Below are positions 19,346 to 63,680 of a stretch of 64,000 bases of DNA, piece by piece (position 1 is the stretch's first letter; each line of letters starts with the position of its first letter). The notes beneath the pieces are model-generated. The model did no database searches, was not told where the DNA came from, and saw nothing but the letters and a program-made list of their open reading frames with translations. Position numbers and translations under genes: made by a program. Source of the DNA: Paralichthys olivaceus (lineage: Eukaryota > Chordata > Actinopteri > Pleuronectiformes > Paralichthyidae); assembly GCF_024713975.1 (NCBI RefSeq), contig NC_091096.1:4987501-5051500 (forward strand), given 5' to 3'.

Positions 19346-20279
19346 GGCTCGCCGAATCAAAGCGGATTAAATGAAGCTGGTGTCTGAATGTGACTCGTTG
19401 GATGAACGACGGCGAGTTCAGCACGAATCACTGCGTCTCTGTGTAGTTGGACGAGGGTTAGCGTTAGCTAGCTGCCACTGCTATCGATCAATCACTGCTA
19501 ACTAACTAATGCTAGTGGTTGGAGGTCAGTGCAGTGTCTCTATAATGCTCCATGCTGATGAATAAAATGAAGAATAGCGTCAAGAATGAACTTCAGATTT
19601 GTTGCATCTGAATTCAGGGGAACTTGACTAAAGAATCTTTTATTTGAAACTGGGGTTTTAAAAGCTTGTAACATTTCCCCTCTTCATTTATTTATTTATT
19701 CTGCTTCTGTGGATGTCTCAAAATCTGATTCTTATTTTATTGTGTTTTAAACAGTGTTAAGCTTCTCTGAGTGAATTTAGTCCACATTAGACACGTGGAG
19801 GTGTGGTGTCCTGGATGAGGGACAACAAAGCAGTGACATTGAATTTTGGTTCTTTCTTTTCTTTTTGTTTGTTTTTAATAGATTTCCCACAAATCTGAAG
19901 CCGTGATTTTAACTGTCTGTACGTTCTCCCTGTTAATCTAGTCCAGATCTGAAGTCTCACTACAGTGGTTGTGCTTCAATCTGCACTGAAACTTGCATAA
20001 TGTAAATTACTGTACAACTAATGAATCACTTGCTAGTCTTTGATTTGACACATTTTTATTTTAAGTTAAGATTCTCCTGAGCTGTGTGTGAAATGAAAAT
20101 GTCTTCTACTGTGTTTAAATTCAGCTAACATCAAACCAGCTGATGAATATTTGGCTTAATACGTTTATTACAACATTTTTCTGAATCCCTTTCTGCTTTA
20201 TATCTGCAGGTGTGTGTCACTCAAGCAATGAGAGAGGTTTCACCATCTGACCACAGCGGGTCTGCGACATGACGAGAGG

Positions 20280-52956: not shown

Positions 52957-55900
52957 TGATTTGATGCCGCTTGATTGGATTCAAGACAACTGAGCTCTAC
53001 TTTAGTTCATCATATTTCAGGTTCTCTAACCTGTGAGCCGATACACCGGGTTGAGGGAAGTGAACCCCCAGCTCCAGCAGGTGACTTGGTGATGAGGAAG
53101 GCCGTGACCTGTGACGAGACACTTCTTCTTTTCAGCCCATTGTAGAGAACAGATCTGCAACTGGACACATTAGGACTTGTCCATCCAACATGTGCACACG
53201 GTAAAATACTTCTGCAATAATTTAAGCACCTGCGAGTTGGTGTTGGCAGAATTCACGCAAGTCCCTGATTGTGTGTCCCAGATTCTCAGCTTTCCGTCTT
53301 TCCATCCTCCACCTGTGGCGATTATCTTTTCTCGCCATGGACACCATCCCATCGCCTAATCACACAAACACAGTGAAAATAAAACAGAAGACACCCAACA
53401 CCCAGTGAAGAGTTGCAGGATTAAATAACAGTGTTTCACCAACCAGGTTCAAACAGGTTTACACACACAAAAGTGTTAAAACACAGCTTATAAAGTTTTA
53501 TATATAGTTGTACTTTATATATATAACTATAGTTTGTTGAATTTATAAAATTATAGAACGACATTAGTTGACGAAATATTAGATAGTGATCATGGTATCA
53601 AGGTTCTGCCGATACTCAATCAGTCATGAGTCAGCCTCAGCTGTCAATCATGACGCCTCAGCCCATTTTTATAGCATCAAATAAAACCAGTAAAACCAAA
53701 CTAATTGATTTAAACAAATGTTAAAAGATCTGAGTTTTTCCAGACTGGAAACACAAGTAAACAGAAAAATCACACAAGTAGTTTCTCATGTCCCAGTTTC
53801 TAGTCCACTGACCTTAACAGCACTGGGCTGTTTCATGGTCGTCACCGGCTGTTTTGTCCTTGTGAGTCCTGCAATGTCCCCGTCCCATATATGGAGGAGG
53901 CCGTCTGCGGAGCCGCTGGCCAGCCAGTCGTCTCCTGGTGACCACTGAAGGCTGCAGATCCCCTCGTCCTGCAGAGCTGCACCAACCAGAGGCACAGGAG
54001 CCCGGGGGTCAAGGTGATGGATATGTCCGAGAACTGAGCCGCTGTTAGATGGTGGACACTGTTATTTCCCTGCAGTTGATAAATAATGTTCTGCTTTGTC
54101 ATGCTCAGGACATAGTCACCTACATTTATTTTGCTGAGGAATTAAACCGTTTTCTGTGTAATATGGTACACTGAACACACACACACACTGTATGGAGGAC
54201 CAGAAATGACCTAAGCATAAATAAATAAATGTGGAAATAAATAAATAAATGTCTTAAATTCATTTACACATTTATTTATTTCTGTGTTCCAGTTCCACTA
54301 CTTCTGCCTGTCAATGCTGACTGCTTTGCAGTAGTTGCTGTTTGCACTGCTGTGTCAGTTGACACTTTAAGAGACACACAGGTGTGTCAGTTCACACTTA
54401 GTGTCTCCTGGTGACCACTGAAAGCTGCAGAACAAGTGTGAACTGACACACTCATTTTTTATTGGGATGATTCAGTAAGAAACTAACGATCATGTGTTTA
54501 GTTATCTATCGATGGCTTCAGATCATGTCTGCGTGTCGCTCTAGTGATTTTATCACTGACTGCGAGCGTCTCCTCTCATGTTGAACTGAGCACAACATGT
54601 TGACGACTCATTTTTCATAATGTTTAAATGATAAACTCTGGAATCAAACAAACACTGAGTTACTTCATGTACTGATCAGGTCCTGATAACTAGTGATGGT
54701 GTTAGTTAAAGTGAGAGCAGAGTGGAGGAGGAAACAGAAACTCCAGCTCGATACAAACCAACTGCAGCTTCAGCTCTGATCATGAAGCAGCTGATCACTG
54801 AGCAGCTGTTACCAGAGAAACTCTGTGTTTCACTGTTTCTACTGCTCTTAAACTAAGTCTCTGATCTGCTGCTTCACGTGAACGTTCACTCAGTTTGCTA
54901 ACTACACTACAGGGTTTCGATCATGTGTCAGATCATGTCTGCGTGTAGCACTTTTAAAGTGTGAACAGACACACCTGTGTGTCTTTTAAAGTGTGAACTG
55001 ACACAACACTGCAAACAGCAACTATTGCACAACAGTCAGCACTGACGGGAAGAAGTAGTCAATAAATAAATGTGGAAATAAATAAATGTGGAATTAAATT
55101 TAAAGGTACAGCTTGTTTTCTGATGTCTAGTGTTGAAGTTGCATGTTGCAGCTGAACACCCCTCACCTCCCCCTCTCCTTCCAAACATGAAAGAGAACCT
55201 GTGGAAGCCTTTAATTGTCATAAAAATTCAGAAGGTGTTTAGTTTGTCCAGTCTGGACTGATGTAAAAAACATGGCGGCCTCCGTAGAGAGGGTCCCCTC
55301 CATGTTAATATAAAGTATTTTAATATAAAGGGCCTTTTCTGAGGTAAAGAAAACTACAAATCATAAAATTTAGATGAAACGAACTATTGAAAACATCATG
55401 AGGATTATTCTACATTTAATTTCTCCCAATAGTTCCCTTTCACCTAAATCTTACACACTGGACCTTTATTTATTTATACTTAAGTCAGTTCTGGTCCTCC
55501 AAACACCAGTACCTGCTCAGTAACTGCTGTTTCCAGGAAAGCGCTCTGACCACAGACAGGTGTGATGTCATACGTCTCATAATCTGCTTCGTTTCAACAT
55601 CCCACAGCTGAGGAGTCAAAGAAAGACAAAGAAACCACAAACCGTCAGCCTGCTGATGCAACAGGTCCTTTGCACAGACCCCTTTAACTACACTCTGTAT
55701 GAATAAGAGTTCACCCCTCTACCAGTTCATTTACTTGAAGTGCTTACCTGCACATCACCTCGTCTGGTCCCAATGCACAGAGCTCTGCCGTCTCTGCTCC
55801 AGCACAGAGACGAGACGGACTGATGGTGTCCAGTTGGTAGACTCTGCTCCAGATTTCCCACCAGAACTCGGGTTTCTGAATTCCAGAGGTAAACAGAACA

Positions 55901-56785
55901 GCCCAGGGCTAATGCAACCACGCCATTACAACTGCAGTCGAGAACGTTCGTGTCTGAGGGGGAAGAGATGGAGGAGAGTGTGCTTATTTGACCTTACGAT
56001 GGTCAGACAAATAGGAGCTTTTCACTGGTGCTTTACAGCTTATTGGCAATAACAACGTGTACAAATTAAAATTATAATAATACTAAAGGCCAGTAAACAC
56101 AAACCCCACCATGCACTGATGAAAAAAAAAAATTCAGGAATTGAACAAGGTCTCTTAAATTGTAAAAGAGAATTAAATTCCTACATTTGTTTATTCTAAC
56201 TGTTCAGTTATACTTTGTGTTGTTATCTCCTGAATCCTATTTTAAAGGCTTCTCCGCAGTACTCAGTACTTTTTACAACGTCCAGATGTGTTAGGCAATT
56301 ACTTACAGTTTTTTTTTTTAAATATGAAAGCATTTATTTGTGACACACAGACAGCATAGGAGGCATTAACTAACTTTTAATCTTTTCATGGGTCGTTGAG
56401 GCTCAGTGTTCTTCCTCGTGCATTTGAGAGTAAAGCAGAATTTGTGTCTTCTCTTACAATAGTCGTTCAGAAGCGACGGAGCTGCCAACTTCATCACTGG
56501 TGTTCCCTGCCGACCGTCTGGAGCTTTGTCCAGAACTGTGAAGGGCTGCAAACTACATCTTCTCACATCAGCGCCTGTCAAACAAAAAGAACATGCAAGA
56601 CGTTTCACATCAGCAGTACATCTTTGGTTTACTGGTGATAGTCTCAAACACATGTATTCTCTTAGTTATTCTGTCGTCAGGTTTGAAACAAGAAACATTA
56701 AACTCTTTAAATATTGGATTAATGACCCCTGACCATATTTACACTGAGGCTTATAGACGCAATCTGTTCAACAACTGTAAAACAA

Positions 56786-56823
<38 letters not shown>

Positions 56824-59800
56824 TTCAGCACATATCATGTTCGACCATCATGACTCCATTAACTTAACTCATATTTAACATTTCACACAATCATATCAGA
56901 AAAGACAAACAAAGACCTACAGCATTTCTCAAGTTCTTTCTTTTTTGTTTTAGCCTCTTGTTTCCTGGAGCGACATAAGGCAGTATCGCTCATCGTGTGT
57001 GTGTGTGTGTGTGTGTGTAGAAGAAATGTACGAGTGAAGAAAGAGTCTGCATGCTTTACCAGTCTGTTGTGTGCTGACAGGTTCTTCCACTGCTGCTCTC
57101 CACATCCATCCCTGTGAAAAAATGTTTTTATTGTCATTAGATTAGATATTTTACATGATTTTATATAAACATGTTCTTTTTCAAACGTATTTATCTATAT
57201 GAATGATCTTGCAGATATAGACAACATTTTCTGTATTTTGAAAGCCAGCACGGCAGGAGGAAATCCAGCACCCTGTCAAAGATTTTCATCTCTTAACACA
57301 CACACCCACACACACACACACACAGAAACCAAACTGCAGAGGCGCAGTCTCACATTTCTGAAACAGACCTGTTGTGGGACATTTTGTGTTGCAGGTCGTC
57401 CCCTGGCACAGATGGTGTGTGAAGTGTTCAGCGGTATAACAGACAAACGTCCCTCCAGTGTTGTCTCTGATGAGGACAAATGATAAGACAGAAACTAACA
57501 TCAATTATGATTAAATCTACCGTGTCTGTGTAGATCGATTCAATTTAAATGTGGTTTATTTATTTGGCCTTGGCCGAGGCATCTGCTCTACTGAGTGAAA
57601 AAGTTTTGGCAAAACCAACACTGTGTCCGTTCATCCATCCCCCAACTTCGTGAAAACGAGAGAGAGAAAGAGAGAGAGGAGTCAGGATGGACTGACTGAA
57701 TGAATATATATGATTTAATATAATGTATAAGTATAAGTGCCAGTTGGTGGGTTCATTTATACAGCTCTCAAGGAGGCAGACCATTACATCGGCAAAATTT
57801 AAAAAACAAATGTCAATAGACTCAGCTAATCATCGTTAGACAATAAATTCGTCCAATCGCCCGACCCTGGCTGGTAGTCGGCACAAGTGTTGCTGGGAAA
57901 TCAGAGGCGTAGCCAGTGAAGTATATGCTGATGTAATGTGAGGCTCCAGCACATGAAAAAACCAACCAGCACTAGCACTCGGCTCCCTCTGGTGGAAACG
58001 GGGGAAACAAAGTGAAAGTAACAGTGGGTCGTGGCTGGTGTTGGGATAAATCTTCAGAAAAAGGATGTAAGACAATGAAATGTCCCCAAAAGTGGCCTGT
58101 GGTGTTGGAGAGGTCAGTGTCACAGTATCTCAGGGCCAGGCTGGTTGTGGAGATACTAACCTTGCAGCGCCCCCTGCAGGCCTCTGCGTGCTGCTTCATG
58201 GTGTGTGGGTGGAGAGTCCAGCTCCAGCCTCTGACACACCGTGTCCAACTCAAAGCATCGCTGCCTCTGCTGCCGCCCAGTGGTCAGAGGTGTACTCACA
58301 GCCGGAGCCTCGGTGCTGCTCCTGTGGAAGTGGATCCACGTCTTGAAACGTTTGTATGAAACGTTACAAGCGTCGTTTTGTCCCTGAGAAGACACATGAT
58401 AATAATAAATTCTATTATAACTTACTGAAAAATAATTTAAACAAAACTACAGCAGGTCTGAATATGAAAAAAAAAAAAAACTTCACTGCAGCGTCATTCC
58501 AATTTAGATCAATGCTTCTGGTTTACACTTTCAAAGTAAAAGACCTTTACATTAACCCCTGACCCTTGTTTTCCTCTTAAGAGACCAGTCATCATATGAA
58601 TGTATGTTAGACTATTAATCCTGCTCTAGGGATACACACATATTTTTTAATTAATCAACTATGATTTAATGATTAAATTTATTTTCATTCTACAATTTCC
58701 ACATCTTTTGTGTAATATTGTGACTTTTGAAATACTTTAGATGACATTTCTCATTAAATTACACCTTAATCCTCATTATAGAACTTTATTCTCATACGCT
58801 CAATATCATTACTTTTTAATTGTTAAATAATTAAATTTTTCATGTAATATTATGACTTTTTTTCATTGAATTTGGATTTGATTCTGTGTTACTATGGTTT
58901 TCCCTAATTAAATTAGGACTTTATTTTGTAATATTATGATTCTCAATTTCAATTTCATTTATTTCGCAATATTACATTACATAAATCTCTAAATTTCAGA
59001 ATTCTTTCCTTCAATCCGTTCCCGATACTCTGTCAAAGTTCAAATAGGTGAAATGTACTTTTTATTTTGCTGGTGAGACTGGTTTTATTTTGACAGAATC
59101 ATCCCCTTGCTTCCTGTTCCATCCTGGTGTACTTCAGGGACTTTTACGCAGAGTCTTCCTCCGTCCGCCCCGACACGTCTGGAGCCCCTGACACCGACAT
59201 ACGGTCTGTTCTTCCCCCTCCAACATGGAGGCCTTAGGGGGCTACCCCACCAAGTCCTCCGGCCCCAGAGCGAAGAGGCTGAAGGTGCTGCTGAGCATGA
59301 CGGTGGGTGTGGGCTGTTTGTTCCTCCTGCAGACGCAGCTGGTGAAGCCGAGGAAACCCCAAGACTTTTATTCTTTCGAGGTGAAGGACGCGAAGGGGAG
59401 GTCTGTCTCTCTGGAGAAGTACCGAGGAAAAGTAAGTCCACATCATCATGTCACTTCTGAGAGTTAATCTGAGCAGACTTTGTCCTGGTTATCCACCGGG
59501 AGATGAGTTTTAGAATAAGTCTTTTCTTAAAGCATCTAATAACCAAACGTTTACGCGCGGTTCCCTCCATGGTCAGGCGTCTTTGGTTGTAAACGTGGCG
59601 AGTCTCAGCGAGCAGACCGAGGTGAACTACATGTCTCTGCAGGAGCTGCACCGGGAGCTGGGCACCTCTCACTTCAACGTGCTGGCCTTCCCCTGCGGAC
59701 AGTTCGGGGACACCGAGCCCGGGAGCAGCCGGGACATCGAGGCCTTCGCCAAGTCCACGTACGGAATCACCTTCCCCTTCTTCAGCAAGATCAAAATAAT

Positions 59801-62800
59801 GGGCTCAGAGGCGGACCCTGCCTTCAGGTTCCTCACAGGTCAGAGAGACACACCACACATCTGTCCAATTACACATGTGCACACAAGCTCAACTATTTGG
59901 GAGCAGAAGTCCCTATGTGTACAGTACCTGTAATAATGATCTGGTACTGATTTATACTCACTGGATGTTTGTATTGACCCGTGCAGACAGTAAATATACA
60001 TGTGACTTCTCTGAAACCCAACTACTGGAGGTGAAGTTTGCTATAAGCTGATCTGGAGCCCCTCCTCATATACAAACCTGTGGTACCTCACACATGTTCT
60101 CAAAGTTAGTACACAAAGGAAGTTTATGTTAGGGGTGGCTGTGTGTCACTTTTGATTAATTGGACTTCTACAAAGATATTTATGGTAATTACTTAGTTTT
60201 ACTACTTATTCAAGCGATAACTAACATTAGCCTAATCATAATCGTTACCACGGCTCGAGCTGATGTGGCTCTGGAGCACCATGGTTCTCCACCGCAGTAA
60301 AGCCCATTTCAGGGGCAGAGGTGCCTCGCAATTCTGTGTCAATCTCCTTTTTTCTCCTACACACTGCACCTTGTGACATCTCACATTAGACACAGCTCTG
60401 CTAAAATAACAATCCAACTCGATTCATGGCTAAACTCAAACTTTTAGATGCATCTTTAATGACTCTATGAAAACGTGTCGTTTTCCAGATTCTGTGAAGA
60501 AAATTCCAAAGTGGAACTTCTGGAAGTTTCTGGTGAATCCCGAGGGGAAAGTCATCCGCTTCTGGCGAACTGACGAGCCCATGGAAAGCGTTCGAGAGGA
60601 GGCCACGGCGCTGGTGCGAGAAATCATCTTAAAGAAACGCGTGGAGCTATGATGGAGCGTATTGACACACAGCTGTTTTCATGTCAGTGTTTCCTGTGCT
60701 GGAGTCACGAGCGGTGGACTGTGAACTGTTCCAGTGAGTTTGGTTTGGGTGACGTCTCCAGAAATGATCCACTAGCTTCAGACACAAATGCTATCAGTGT
60801 CAGAGCAAAGCACATCAGAATATGTGTGTATCTGTGTGTAATGGGGACCATCCTGTGGTTGCTAATGACAACGATGAAGAACTTTGATGACCACTGCTGC
60901 GGCTGAAGAATTGTTTAGCGTTGGATTTTTACACATTTACTTTGGCTTAGTCGCGTCTCTACTTTCCTAATGTTTACGTCAAAATCTATTTGTTAAGGTG
61001 AAGCATTCCAATTAAGGCAATTTTGACTGATCTGAGCCCAGCAAATTGTGAAACATCCATCCAACAATAAAAGGATTTCATCATTTTTTTGATTTAGCTA
61101 ATAGGCCTGGAATCTTTTATGTTTTTGCTATTTAGAAAAATGTTTTTACATCTGCATGTTTTCACATGCAGATGTAAATACTAACTATTGACTACTGGAA
61201 GAGTTCTCACAAATATCAGTTTGGTAAGAACTACCTACAATGACAGAAACAATCTCTGAGAAAAAATGATCGAACGTATACTTTAAATTTTTATTTTAGT
61301 CCATCTACTAACACAGAGAAGGTGGAGACCTATACTGTAGCCAGCCACCAGGGGGCATCAGTCTATGATACCAACTTGCTTGCAAAGCAACACAAATGCA
61401 TACTGATACTGATATATTTGTTTTTTTTATTAGTAGAAGTTCACGGTAATTGCAGAAGCTGCTGGTGAGGATTTAAATGTGGACAGTTGGAGGGCAGCAG
61501 CAGGTAAGCTGGCACTCACACATTCAACCAGCTAACAAGACACTGCCTTCCAGCCACCCACGACAAGACAGCGTAACAACCACACATCTCAAAATAATCC
61601 TTACTCTCTCCTATTTGCAAACAGTCTTCGGTGAATCAGGATGAACGTGTCCTCGACCCCGCACAGCATAAACGGTGAAATGTAAACTGTTAAGGTAGCA
61701 GAGCAGAGTGAGCTGACACAGGAAAACGTCAGCTAACATTACACTGCCTCCCAACCAGTCACACAGCTCGTGAGGCCACGTGAACGGAGATGAATGTTAA
61801 TCATGGTGTTAACTGTTAAATGTGAGGTTTGCTTGTATGAAAGCAACAATTCTCAGAGGTCGGTTGAAAGCAGCAGTGAGGAGTGCAGCTGGCAGCTGTC
61901 AGTCGTACAGTAACACAGCCAGCAGCGGTCACTGCCACACTGTCACCATCAGTCAATCCATCAGTCTGCTAATCTATTTATCTATACAATGAGAAAAACA
62001 AAGTCATTTTTTACAGACGATAAAATGGAGTAGAAACACACCAATAATAGATATTAGTGTGCGAACAGATTAAGTTTAATGAAATTTAACGACAGGGTTT
62101 TATTTTTTTTCCCCACTTTCTTTAAAGCAACACGATGTAACTTTTACTGAGCAACAGCGCCCCCTTCAGTCCCACTCACTGAACAGAAACACAAGTGAGC
62201 AGTGGATATTACCCATGATCCCCGGCTTCCTGAACCAGAAGAGCTGCCGCTGATACAAATCCACCAAACTCTGTTTAGAATTCTTCATATTTTAAAGTTT
62301 CCTGCTGAACATTGGAGATAAACTGTGGTTTTGAATGACTTCTCGGTCTTTTTAACTGAGCCACAGTTCAGCTTTACTCTTCAACTTGCTGGACCTGATT
62401 CTGACGTTTTAAGGAGATCGTACCCACTCACTGAAGTTACATAGAGCTAGAACATTCAGGACTGTTCAGGGTGAGGAGGAGGAATGAATGAGGAAAGATT
62501 CTCTCTATTCCAACTCTGTGAACCATCAAACTCAATTTTGAATCTGCTGTTTCAATGTAAAAAAAAGTTGCAGTGTATCTTTGACAATATGTTCTATTAT
62601 ACTATAAAATCATTTAGGTCATGAAACCACTTCCTTTTTTCTTTTTAAATTAGAAATAAATCTAAATGATAAATTTTACTCATATAGCACCTTTCAAAAC
62701 ACAGCGACAAGGTGCTTTACAAGCTTAAAATGAAAAGGTAGACTATGAGAATTATAAGAACTAATCCTGGGTGGAGGTTGTTGGGCCATGGCGGGAGAGA

Positions 62801-63490
62801 ATTCCAATTTTACAGATTATTATTCCCTCTTACCTTGAAGGGGTAGTTCCTCCTCTTCCCCACAAAGTCTCTGAACATTTCCCTCATATCGTCCTGGTCA
62901 TGAACAAACAAAGAAAAGAATAAGTTGCTCATCATCATCATCATCATCAGAAAACCATTCTCCACATGCAAAACTTCAACAAAAGTGGATTCCATATACC
63001 TCCAAATATAATTATTCAGTAAATTGAGGATTATTAAAACATAAAGTGTTGTTCGCTCCATGCTGAACATGTTAATGCAAGGAGGAACAGTCGTGTGTTT
63101 AGAGTTTGAAGTGGTTGCCTGGTAGCAGCAGCAGCAGCAGCAACAGGCCACAGAGTGAAAGGAAGGACATATAGTTCATAAGATAAGATAAGATAATTCT
63201 TTATTAGTCCCACAATGGGGGAATTTGCAGTATTACAGCAGGGGAAATCAAAATAGACATGAGTAAGTATATAATATGCAATACTTAAGTGTAAGAAAAA
63301 ATGAATTGATTAAAGTAATACAGTGTAAAAAGAGGCAACGTATGTGTAGTGAGTGGATTGCACATGAACCATTGGTATTCCACAGACAGATGAATATATA
63401 GCACACTGCATATTGCTCAGTTAAGAGATAATTAAAACTCAAAGCTCACCCATTCATCTCGAGGTTTCCAGACGAATCTCCAGCGATCAT
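52612..63490 (-). CDS. cdc20b: CDC20B-like WD40 protein (mir-449 host gene)
   Basis: Twelve exons: 63450-63490, 62834-62893, 58161-58383, 57369-57466, 57060-57111, 56458-56574, 55748-55953, 55513-55607, 53813-54041, 53230-53355, 53031-53154 and 52612-52742. From exon 2 all phases agree (487 codons with stop). Exons 6-12 code the WD40 propeller: LLNDYYTNVLDCSCNGVVAL, SVYLWNSETR, GDVQLWDVETK, SHLSVVRALSWKQQLLSSGS, LASGSADGLLHIWDGD, AMGWCPWREK, TNSQICSLQW, TGHSHRVLHLASNP and AAADQCFHIWDLQ. These follow human CDC20B closely; the C-terminal IR tail of CDC20 is absent. Exons 2-5 are weaker (PATQNVPQQ against human VTQNVVQQ). Exon 1 is odd: the ATG at 63490 is one base out of frame with exon 2. The gene hosts gpx8 and mir-449 in intron 2 and acts in multiciliated cells in other vertebrates. 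Confidence 0.88.
52898..52954. repeat. (TG)n microsatellite in the last cdc20b intron
   Basis: About 28 TG units, near the junction with exon 11. Confidence 0.95.
54402..54430 (+). repeat. Copied 28-base piece of cdc20b exon 9
   Basis: GTCTCCTGGTGACCACTGAA then AGCTGCAGA is the same as 53930-53958 inside cdc20b exon 9 (53813-54041), with one difference. It lies between TTCACACTTA and AACAAGTGTGAA, the two arms of a small palindrome of the foldback element. Confidence 0.8.
55101..55468. mobile_element. MITE nested in the foldback element
   Basis: The ends TAAAGGTACAG and CTGGACCTTTA are imperfect inverted repeats. Internal phrases AACATGAAAGAGAACCTGTG and AAAAACATGGCGGCCTCCGT are those of a very common MITE of spiny-rayed fish. 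It sits in the right subterminal AT repeat of the 54193-55501 element, so it is younger. Partial relatives lie at 14830-14965 and 18575-18615. Confidence 0.7.
56790..56822 (+). repeat. (GT)n microsatellite
   Basis: About 15 GT units in the cdc20b intron between exons 5 and 6. Shorter runs are at 56995-57018 (GT) and 57296-57323 (CA). Confidence 0.9.
58384..59224. other. cdc20b intron 2, part before gpx8
   Basis: No gene is seen. 58690-58990 is a degraded minisatellite of TAATATTATGACTTTATTCTC-like units. The gpx8 5' UTR and promoter must lie between about 59040 and 59224; no TATA box is evident. Confidence 0.5.
59225..60652 (+). CDS. gpx8: Glutathione peroxidase 8-like ER membrane protein
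   Basis: Three exons: 59225-59431, 59577-59838 and 60489-60652, giving 210 residues (human GPX8 209). A short N-terminal cytosolic part (MEALGGYPTKSSGPRAKRLK) precedes one membrane segment (about 20-42) and a thioredoxin-fold GPx domain in the ER lumen: FYSFEVKDAKGRSVSLEKYR, VVNVASLSEQTEVNY, LAFPCGQFGDTEPG, PKWNFWKFLVNPEG. GPX8 oxidises PDI using peroxide from ERO1. Two oddities: the peroxidatic Cys expected in VASxCxxT is Ser here (VASLSEQT), and the tetrad Asn in FPCNQFG is Gly. The C-terminus is RVEL in place of a KDEL-like signal (human KEDL). Frames and splice sites are otherwise intact. It is nested in cdc20b intron 2 on the opposite strand, as in mammals. Confidence 0.94.
61064..61069 (+). 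promoter_or_regulatory. Poly(A) signal of gpx8
   Basis: AATAAA (CAACAATAAAAGG), about 410 bases past the gpx8 stop. Confidence 0.55.
61145..61178. repeat. Perfect 14-bp inverted repeat, 6-nt loop
   Basis: TTTACATCTGCATG, loop TTTTCA, then CATGCAGATGTAAA, 75 bases after the gpx8 poly(A) signal and before the mir-449 cluster. It could be a termination or processing hairpin; no known family. Confidence 0.85.
61488..61552 (-). ncRNA. mir449: mir-449 family hairpin 1
   Basis: Minus strand, same as the host cdc20b. The 5p arm at 61548-61526 begins AGGCAGTGTCTTGTTAGCTG. The seed GGCAGTG and the 3' half GTTAGCTGG match miR-449 (human 449b starts AGGCAGUGUAUUGUUAGCUG), and part also resembles miR-34a, its sister family. 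The 3p arm at 61512-61491 (CCAGCTTACCTGCTGCTGCC) pairs with it through CCAGC/GCTGG and CTGCC/GGCAG, leaving a loop of about 13 bases. Location in intron 2 of cdc20b equals the mammalian site. miR-449 lowers Notch-pathway and CP110 levels during multiciliogenesis. Confidence 0.85.
61690..61755 (-). ncRNA. mir449: mir-449 family hairpin 2
   Basis: Minus strand. The 5p arm at 61749-61728 begins AGGCAGTGTAATGTTAGCTG, with the same seed and GTTAGCTG core as miR-449. The 3p arm at about 61716-61698 (GTCAGCTCACTCTGCTCTGC) pairs through GTCAGCT/AGCTGAC and the CTGCT end. It lies about 180 bases upstream, in transcription order, of hairpin 1, a spacing typical of one polycistronic primary transcript. 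Confidence 0.83.
61868..61940 (-). ncRNA. mir449c: mir-449c-like hairpin 3
   Basis: Minus strand, first of the three in transcription order. The 5p arm at 61937-61915 begins TGGCAGTGACCGCTGCTGGC: the seed GGCAGTG is exact and the 3' part GCTGCTGGCTGT resembles human miR-449c (GCUAGCGGCUGU) more than 449a/b. The 3p arm at 61898-61871 holds GCCAGC and TCACTGC, which pair with GCTGGC and GCAGTGA of the 5p arm. The middle is more diverged than in hairpins 1 and 2, so functional maturation is less sure. Confidence 0.6.
62123..62583. mobile_element. MITE in cdc20b intron 2
   Basis: It opens with TTAAAGCAACACGATGTAAC and closes with AGTTGCAGTGTATCTTTGA, an imperfect terminal inverted repeat. Internal phrases GAACAGAAACACAAG and GAACCAGAAGAGCTGC are familiar from a common fish MITE. 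It carries no coding sequence. Confidence 0.55.
62665..62820 (+). repeat. Interspersed repeat fragment
   Basis: TATAGCACCTTTCAAAACAC and AAGGTGCTTTACAAG is a phrase of a common fish retroposon. The fragment ends just before cdc20b exon 2. Confidence 0.45.
63178..63320 (+). repeat. Interspersed repeat fragment in cdc20b intron 1
   Basis: AAGATAATTCTTTATTAGTC, CCACAATGGGGGAATTTGCA and TATTACAGCAGG, the same family as the granzyme intron 2 repeats but closer to the usual consensus, so probably a younger copy. It is preceded by four AAGAT units. Confidence 0.6.
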
Positions 63491-63680
63491 GGCTGAGTTT
63501 CCTTCCCTGTGTGCGGGCAGTGGGAGCACTGGGAGCCGGTCATGCCTGGTGCACCTGTCGCCTCCTCTCCTGCTCCTCTCCGGGCTCCGGCCTCTAAATA
63601 CTCCCCCCGGGGCGGACGGTGGCGCGGGAAGCTCCGTCCTCCGAGCTGCTATTGGCGGTTACACGTGGACCCGAGTCGCT
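63450..63680 (-). promoter_or_regulatory. cdc20b promoter and first exon region
   Basis: The GC-rich stretch at 63490-63680 carries a CCAAT motif (GCCAATAGCAGC, minus, about 63645-63656) and a weak TATA-like AGTATTTAGAGG near 63590, all on the minus strand upstream of the cdc20b ATG. It would also drive the mir-449 primary transcript. Beyond 63700 I see no gene to the window end. Confidence 0.45.

Follow-up and report, generated by a model that had tools for sequence, protein, structure and literature searches.

A mir-449 cluster of three hairpins in a cdc20b intron of the flounder Paralichthys olivaceus

Human airway cells growing many cilia use a cluster of three mir-449 microRNAs, which lie in the order c-b-a within CDC20B, with gpx8 nested and mcidas and ccno as neighbours. 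Does a flatfish hold the same arrangement, and which of its copies correspond to which human ones? We examined this in 64,000 nucleotides of Paralichthys olivaceus DNA (contig NC_091096.1, positions 4,987,501 to 5,051,500), hereafter the window, to which coordinates refer unless they carry a contig or locus label. An earlier note on this DNA had described three minus-strand hairpins with the seed GGCAGTG on the cdc20b strand, placed them in intron 2 of cdc20b, and proposed that host, intron, order and number had been kept since the common ancestor of bony vertebrates.

To identify the host gene, window exons were joined by hand into a query, which matches CDC20B of many fishes and best that of P. 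olivaceus (99% over 83% of the query). On the minus strand, the P. olivaceus CDC20B record aligns between 62887 and 52615. Nine of the 13 cdc20b matches in the genome lie here and the other four (on C16 and C3) are ≤44% identical; judged by these matches, cdc20b is single-copy. The gene and its surroundings comprise the following features.

63595..63655, minus strand: putative cdc20b promoter (CCAAT at 63655-63651; E2F-type TTCCCGCG at 63630-63623; TATTTA at 63600-63595)
62834..62893, minus strand: cdc20b exon on the 5′ side of the mir-449 intron, probably exon 2 (P. olivaceus CDC20B, tblastn; flanked by AG upstream and GTAAGA downstream)
58384..62833, minus strand: cdc20b intron with the mir-449 cluster and antisense gpx8 (exon ends, GT..AG borders)
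52615..58383, minus strand: other cdc20b exons (WD40 part), approximate ends (ordered tblastn matches from 58386 to 52615; PF24807 in the orthologue P0001)
59225..60652, plus strand: gpx8 (exons joined by hand; PF00255, E 6.7e-32; PDB 3kij, E 7.4e-75)

The mir-449 intron separates an exon ending ...RRNYPFK from an exon starting GQNDACN..., the latter beginning at 58383 and preceded by CAG. At this junction the protein alignment continues into ...TRRHYPFR / MRKTADG... of bowfin, which was compared as protein. All three hairpins (H1 to H3, in transcription order) lie inside 62833-58384, in the sense of cdc20b. The P. olivaceus record starts in the exon at 62893-62834; bowfin, sturgeon and conger proteins are 21-24 residues longer in front, and these extra residues were taken as a presumptive exon 1. 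A GT donor at 63449 is preceded by the motifs of 63595-63655, whose spacing resembles that of a promoter, and this donor together with the CCAAT, E2F-type and TATTTA elements suggests a non-coding first exon; of two ATGs followed by eye, neither reads into the next exon. The host gene, the strand and the intron proposed in the earlier note were thus recovered, while the designation “intron 2” is likely only, since exon 1 is deduced from the donor site and the promoter motifs.

Within the putative promoter, the motif TTCCCGCS has its single occurrence in the window (one of seven motifs tried). This E2F-type match sits in a GC-rich stretch. There, CCAAT and MYB-type matches occur about as often as expected, and neither the long RFX pattern nor a FOXJ1-type pattern has a match. 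For human, the accessible part of PMC6220262 places miR-449 in the second intron of CDC20B and describes a promoter activated by E2F1 and E2F4.

The nested gpx8 gene, whose best PDB match is “Probable glutathione peroxidase 8” (3kij), runs antisense within the mir-449 intron and converges on the cluster. The 3′ end of gpx8 probably falls before the hairpins are reached, because a poly(A)-signal-like word lies downstream at 61066. Between gpx8 and the cluster, the cdc20b intron also holds an inverted repeat (61145-61178) whose 15-base arms pair perfectly around a loop of four bases; this repeat has sub-threshold Rfam matches to YenS and mir-5595.

The three hairpins are listed below, first to last in the direction of transcription.

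61865..61951, minus strand: H1, mir-449c orthologue (5p arm from 61937; RF00711 32.8 bits; fold; 449c alignment; pomfret primer)
61681..61763, minus strand: H2, middle mir-449 copy, 449b by position (5p arm from 61749; RF00711 35.0 bits; fold)
61478..61562, minus strand: H3, mir-449a orthologue (5p arm from 61548; RF00711 55.0 bits; fold; 449a alignment)

The minus-strand GGCAGTG words start at 61936 (H1), 61748 (H2) and 61547 (H3), in agreement with the 5′ ends of 61937, 61749 and 61548 claimed earlier, and GGCAGUG occupies positions 2-8 of the 5p arm in all three hairpins, with the exact mature 5′ ends assumed. As had also been claimed, two hairpins carry the miR-449 core: GTTAGCTG follows the seeds of H2 and H3, at 61737 and 61536, and one further copy occurs in the window at 20129. 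Counting only sites with full flanks, GGCAGTG occurs 10 times in the window, five times on each strand, and three of the five minus-strand sites fall within 389 bases. When five sites were placed at random 100,000 times, three of them inside 400 bases occurred with a frequency of 0.0013.

Folds were judged over the spans matched by the Rfam model, against 200 shuffles. Each hairpin formed a single stem-loop with the seed in its 5p arm: H1 at −34.1 kcal/mol (z −1.88, 7 of 200 shuffles as good), H2 at −34.3 kcal/mol (z −3.97, 0 of 200) and H3 at −38.0 kcal/mol (z −3.65, 0 of 200). H1 is the weakest of the three, only modestly better than shuffles and dependent on the frame. In shifted frames a competing pairing appears, with an alternative that has a 2x5 internal loop, and in a 76-nt frame ending inside the 3p arm the hairpin was not formed (z −0.12); this tight frame is misleading because the 3p arm is cut. 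Folding on its own is not decisive, since a further GGCAGTG site, at 63516 in plus orientation, likewise lies in a paired arm (18 bases, vs. 17 for each of H1-H3), and a good fold is also obtained for H3 read on the plus strand. This plus-strand fold (61485-61565, z −5.18) makes an antisense hairpin possible in principle, and its score with the mir-449 model is only 22.7 bits.

We next turn to family membership. All three hairpins were matched on the minus strand by the Rfam mir-449 model, RF00711 (bit scores as listed), with E-values in a 2-kb search of 1.1e-11 for H3 and of 1.1e-5 and 5.2e-5 for the other two. All fall below the gathering cut-off of 60.4 bits, a reporting threshold rather than a biological feature, so that no RF00711 call is made in the window at the cut-off and the E-value mode is needed. 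Across the genome (588 Mb, 25 contigs), E-values were 7.5e-10 (H3), 7.6e-4 (H2) and 3.7e-3 (H1). The only other genomic match with E <0.01 was mir-34a on C6 (E 3.1e-3, 33 bits, about the score of H1), and beyond these four loci no RF00711 match in the genome was better than E 8.5. At the lax limit of E 10, the model gave matches in 4 of 14 control genomes, none of them above the cut-off.

A pattern of the seed plus TTAGCTG, which H1 does not fit, gave 13 genomic matches; by inspection, only H2, H3 and mir-34a (C6) have the fold of the family, and the remaining 10 lack it and look like chance. The reversed-pattern control gave 0 matches and understates chance, given these 10. Among the 11 loci besides H2 and H3, Rfam to E 0.1 returned mir-34a (on both strands) and one sub-threshold scaRNA. 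One locus on C6 whose core is identical to that of H2 (L017) was rejected, as it has no hairpin of the mir-449 kind. On the sequence evidence, the identification of the cluster as mir-449 in cdc20b is secure.

Which copy is which was evaluated by aligning the flounder hairpins, the only fish hairpins in this comparison, with human precursors, the controls being fish hairpins shuffled by mononucleotide. H1 scored 65 against 449c (z 15.1 and 12.9 in two runs) and 34 against both 449a and 449b. Its loop and 3p arm alone scored 46 against 449c (z 10.1; best of 300 shuffles, 26), while its 5p arm minus the seed did not favour 449c (449b 16, 449c 14, 449a 12), so that the assignment of H1 rests on the rest of the hairpin. 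H3 scored 72 against 449a (z 16), 52 against 449b and 42 against 449c, and its loop and 3p arm alone scored 30 against 449a (z 6.4). For H2, the scores (34b 51, 449b 47, 449a 43, 449c 42) do not separate the human copies. By similarity over the whole hairpin, H1 is clearly 449c and H3 clearly 449a, whereas H2 is 449b by position only, similarity assigning it to no single human copy, so that the alignments do not establish one-to-one orthology for the whole set. In these alignments the first copy in transcription order is 449c, as the earlier note had it, and the last 449a, the order in human.

Printed human mature arms (449a, 449b-5p, 449b-3p, 449c-5p and 449c-3p) in the accessible part of PMC8499475 confirm those of the precursors used; no printed confirmation of the 449a 3p arm was found in the literature searched. 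Against the printed 449c-3p, the 3p arm of H1 scored 30 (best of 300 shuffles, 24). For printed mature miR-449 sequences of fish, the literature searched yielded only a study of silvery pomfret, which, in the part available, lists a primer for miR-449-z and reports this RNA from small-RNA sequencing and qRT-PCR (PMC12467872). The alignment of that primer to H1 spans 20 columns, contains a single gap and a single mismatch, and scores 30, where none of 1000 shuffles exceeded 27; H1 is one base short just after the seed. With H2 the primer scores 24 (shuffle maximum 23) and with H3 22 (shuffle maximum 25). Because the pomfret study reports both sequencing and qRT-PCR, another spiny-rayed fish seems to produce an H1-like RNA.

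Three other readings of the cluster have to be weighed. If the hairpins were chance seed matches in a structured intron, with no microRNAs among them, one would point to the mere seven bases of the seed, to the other GGCAGTG site that folds, to the lack of an Rfam call at the gathering cut-off, and to the 13 genomic seed-plus-core matches, most of which look like chance. However, genome-wide E-values down to 7.5e-10 converge on one intron known for this family, the observed clustering is infrequent at random, and similarity specific to individual copies extends beyond the seed; we give this reading next to no credence. Independent duplications of a single mir-449 in ray-finned fish, with the agreement in number and order with mammals a coincidence, would sit well with an H2 that pairs clearly with none of the human copies and with the failure of the non-seed 5p arm of H1 to single out 449c, in a comparison of two species only. 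Yet H1 and H3 have different human counterparts, 449c and 449a, each far ahead of the other copies in loop and 3p arm and in the stated order, and we consider such a coincidence very improbable.

The third reading concerns H1, i.e., H2 and H3 would be working microRNA genes and H1 a decaying 449c copy, its seed kept but poorly processed. The lowest Rfam score and weakest z of the three, the alternative pairing with its 2x5 internal loop, and the base by which H1 falls short of the pomfret primer just after the seed all lean this way, but H1 retains an intact seed and a 3p arm that preserves the printed 449c-3p, which is unexpected for a decaying copy, and miR-449-z is reported as an RNA in pomfret (PMC12467872, seen in part). 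Decay of H1 thus seems rather unlikely to us, although it is the most serious of the three alternatives. Overall, the flounder cluster is very probably the orthologue of the vertebrate mir-449c/b/a cluster. As regards the proposed conservation since the bony-vertebrate ancestor, H1 corresponds to 449c and H3 to 449a, H2 could not be assigned to a single copy, and the hairpins compared are those of two species.

The surroundings of the gene extend the likeness. Exons of multicilin (mcidas) lie within C4:5054866-5056121, upstream of cdc20b and on its strand (E 2.3e-137, 85% over 97% of a hand-joined query). Beyond them, again on the cdc20b strand, are cyclin domains at C4:5059077-5059984, in a gene that we take to be ccno from its position and sequence. 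In the flounder, cdc20b, mcidas, the ccno-like cyclin and mir-449 together form the vertebrate multiciliary locus. Past the ccno-like gene, C4:5067739-5068955 on the plus strand contains zinc-knuckle and nucleotidyltransferase-like exons that by eye resemble TUT4/TUT7 (L004:739-966 and 1632-1955), presumably not the neighbour found there in human.

Compared with human MIR449C/MIR449B/MIR449A, the flounder cluster has the same host, strand and intron (by the junction alignment), three copies with the same seed, a 449c-like copy first and a 449a-like copy last, and gpx8, mcidas and ccno as neighbours in both. It differs in compactness, with all hairpins within 474 bases and the human spacing wider, in a middle copy that matches no single human copy, and in the diverged non-seed 5p arm of H1.

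Among fishes, the parts available of the relevant papers name Atlantic salmon ssa-miR-449a/b in a table legend (PMC6356880) and Atlantic cod miR-449 (PMC4403832); these and pomfret miR-449-z share the family name of the flounder copies, the pomfret primer fitting H1 best, and those parts hold no description of a genomic cluster or host intron. In Otomorpha, CDC20B and mir-449 are described as lost and the locus as broken up, the locus being present in some other teleosts (PMC8470418, in the part available), and zebrafish multiciliated cells use the seed relative miR-34b, according to the accessible part of PMC11545745. In contrast to zebrafish and the Otomorpha as reported there, the flounder keeps both cdc20b and mir-449. 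A three-hairpin cluster in a teleost cdc20b intron was not described in the literature searched, and such a description may exist in subscription journals or databases; judged by title, no paper on flounder miR-449 came up, none was found for gar, and the accessible parts of PMC4159003, PMC9511750, PMC12153687 and PMC11324953 held nothing decisive for the cluster. The flounder cluster is a well-preserved case of a known arrangement, not something new, and its significance is modest because this arrangement, including the locus in non-otomorph fish, is already in print.

A further observation, beyond the window, concerns the mir-34 family in the flounder genome. The mir-34 model scored 63 of the 88,521 first-look candidates, and at a lax limit it gave matches in 6 of 14 control genomes, above the cut-off in none. 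Its ranking placed mir-34a first, followed by C15:843531-843597 (E 0.018) and C10 (E 0.46). The last of these (C10:11176292-11176352, plus strand; L027:1501-1561; 25.9 bits) is mir-34b-like, lacks the seed and was set aside as a possible relic or chance match. Canonical mir-34b/c was not found in the genome: a pattern allowing ≤2 mismatches hit two places, both lacking the fold of the family, and the reversed control also gave two matches.

Apart from the C15 copy (plus strand; L026:1501-1567), the genome yielded no mir-34b/c relative of note. This copy scores 56 against human 34b (z 11.2) and 54 against 34c (z 10.1), and its seed is intact, with three bases missing after it. Over 91 nt it folds no better than shuffles (z −0.07), and over 67 nt its z is −1.87, with 10 of 200 shuffles as good; mir-34a reaches z −5.26. 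No tandem partner was present in the 19.0 kb examined. A BTG-domain exon (L029:2798-3091, minus strand) lies 2.2 kb from the copy, and an ORF that by eye looks like the end of btg4 lies 1.1 kb from it; BTG4 is the neighbour of human mir-34b/c. The copy stands on the 3′ side of the btg4-like gene and points towards it; human mir-34b/c lie divergently beyond the 5′ end of BTG4, and this difference in orientation counts against simple synteny. The C15 copy may still work.

One reading of this pattern is reciprocal retention, i.e., the flounder lineage kept mir-449 while its mir-34b/c decayed to one weak copy near btg4, a mirror image of zebrafish and the Otomorpha. In their accessible parts, one paper names cod miR-34c beside cod miR-449 (PMC4403832) and another names miR-34c and miR-449 together for fishes including a sole (PMC11324953), so that a clade-wide exchange of mir-34b/c and mir-449 is not established. 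Given the cod evidence and the changed orientation to btg4, reciprocal retention becomes less probable; we regard it as possible but on balance doubtful.

How the cluster would act can be outlined from work on other vertebrates, from which processing, promoter use and targets in the flounder are inferred. The hairpins would be transcribed within the cdc20b pre-mRNA, from the putative promoter with its CCAAT box and E2F-type site, which GemC1/Multicilin together with E2F factors would switch on when a cell commits to multiciliogenesis. Drosha and Dicer would then release 5p-arm microRNAs with the common GGCAGUG seed. By analogy with mammal and frog work, these would favour exit from the cell cycle and dampen both Notch signalling and Cp110, and CDC20B protein from the same transcript would help make centrioles.

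Were reciprocal retention true, the two multiciliation microRNA loci would be interchangeable, some teleost lineages each having kept a different one, and Atlantic cod, with miR-34c and miR-449 both named in the part of the literature available, would keep the older state. If the decay of mir-34b/c is real and lineage-wide, comparing the two teleost groups would test the redundancy of mir-34b/c and mir-449 in multiciliated cells. From flatfish to human, 449c and 449a are conserved beyond the seed, and the host intron, the nested gpx8 and the mcidas-ccno neighbourhood are intact. Because of these conserved copies and the intact intron and neighbourhood, flatfish and related fishes should be usable to study a cluster that zebrafish has reportedly lost.
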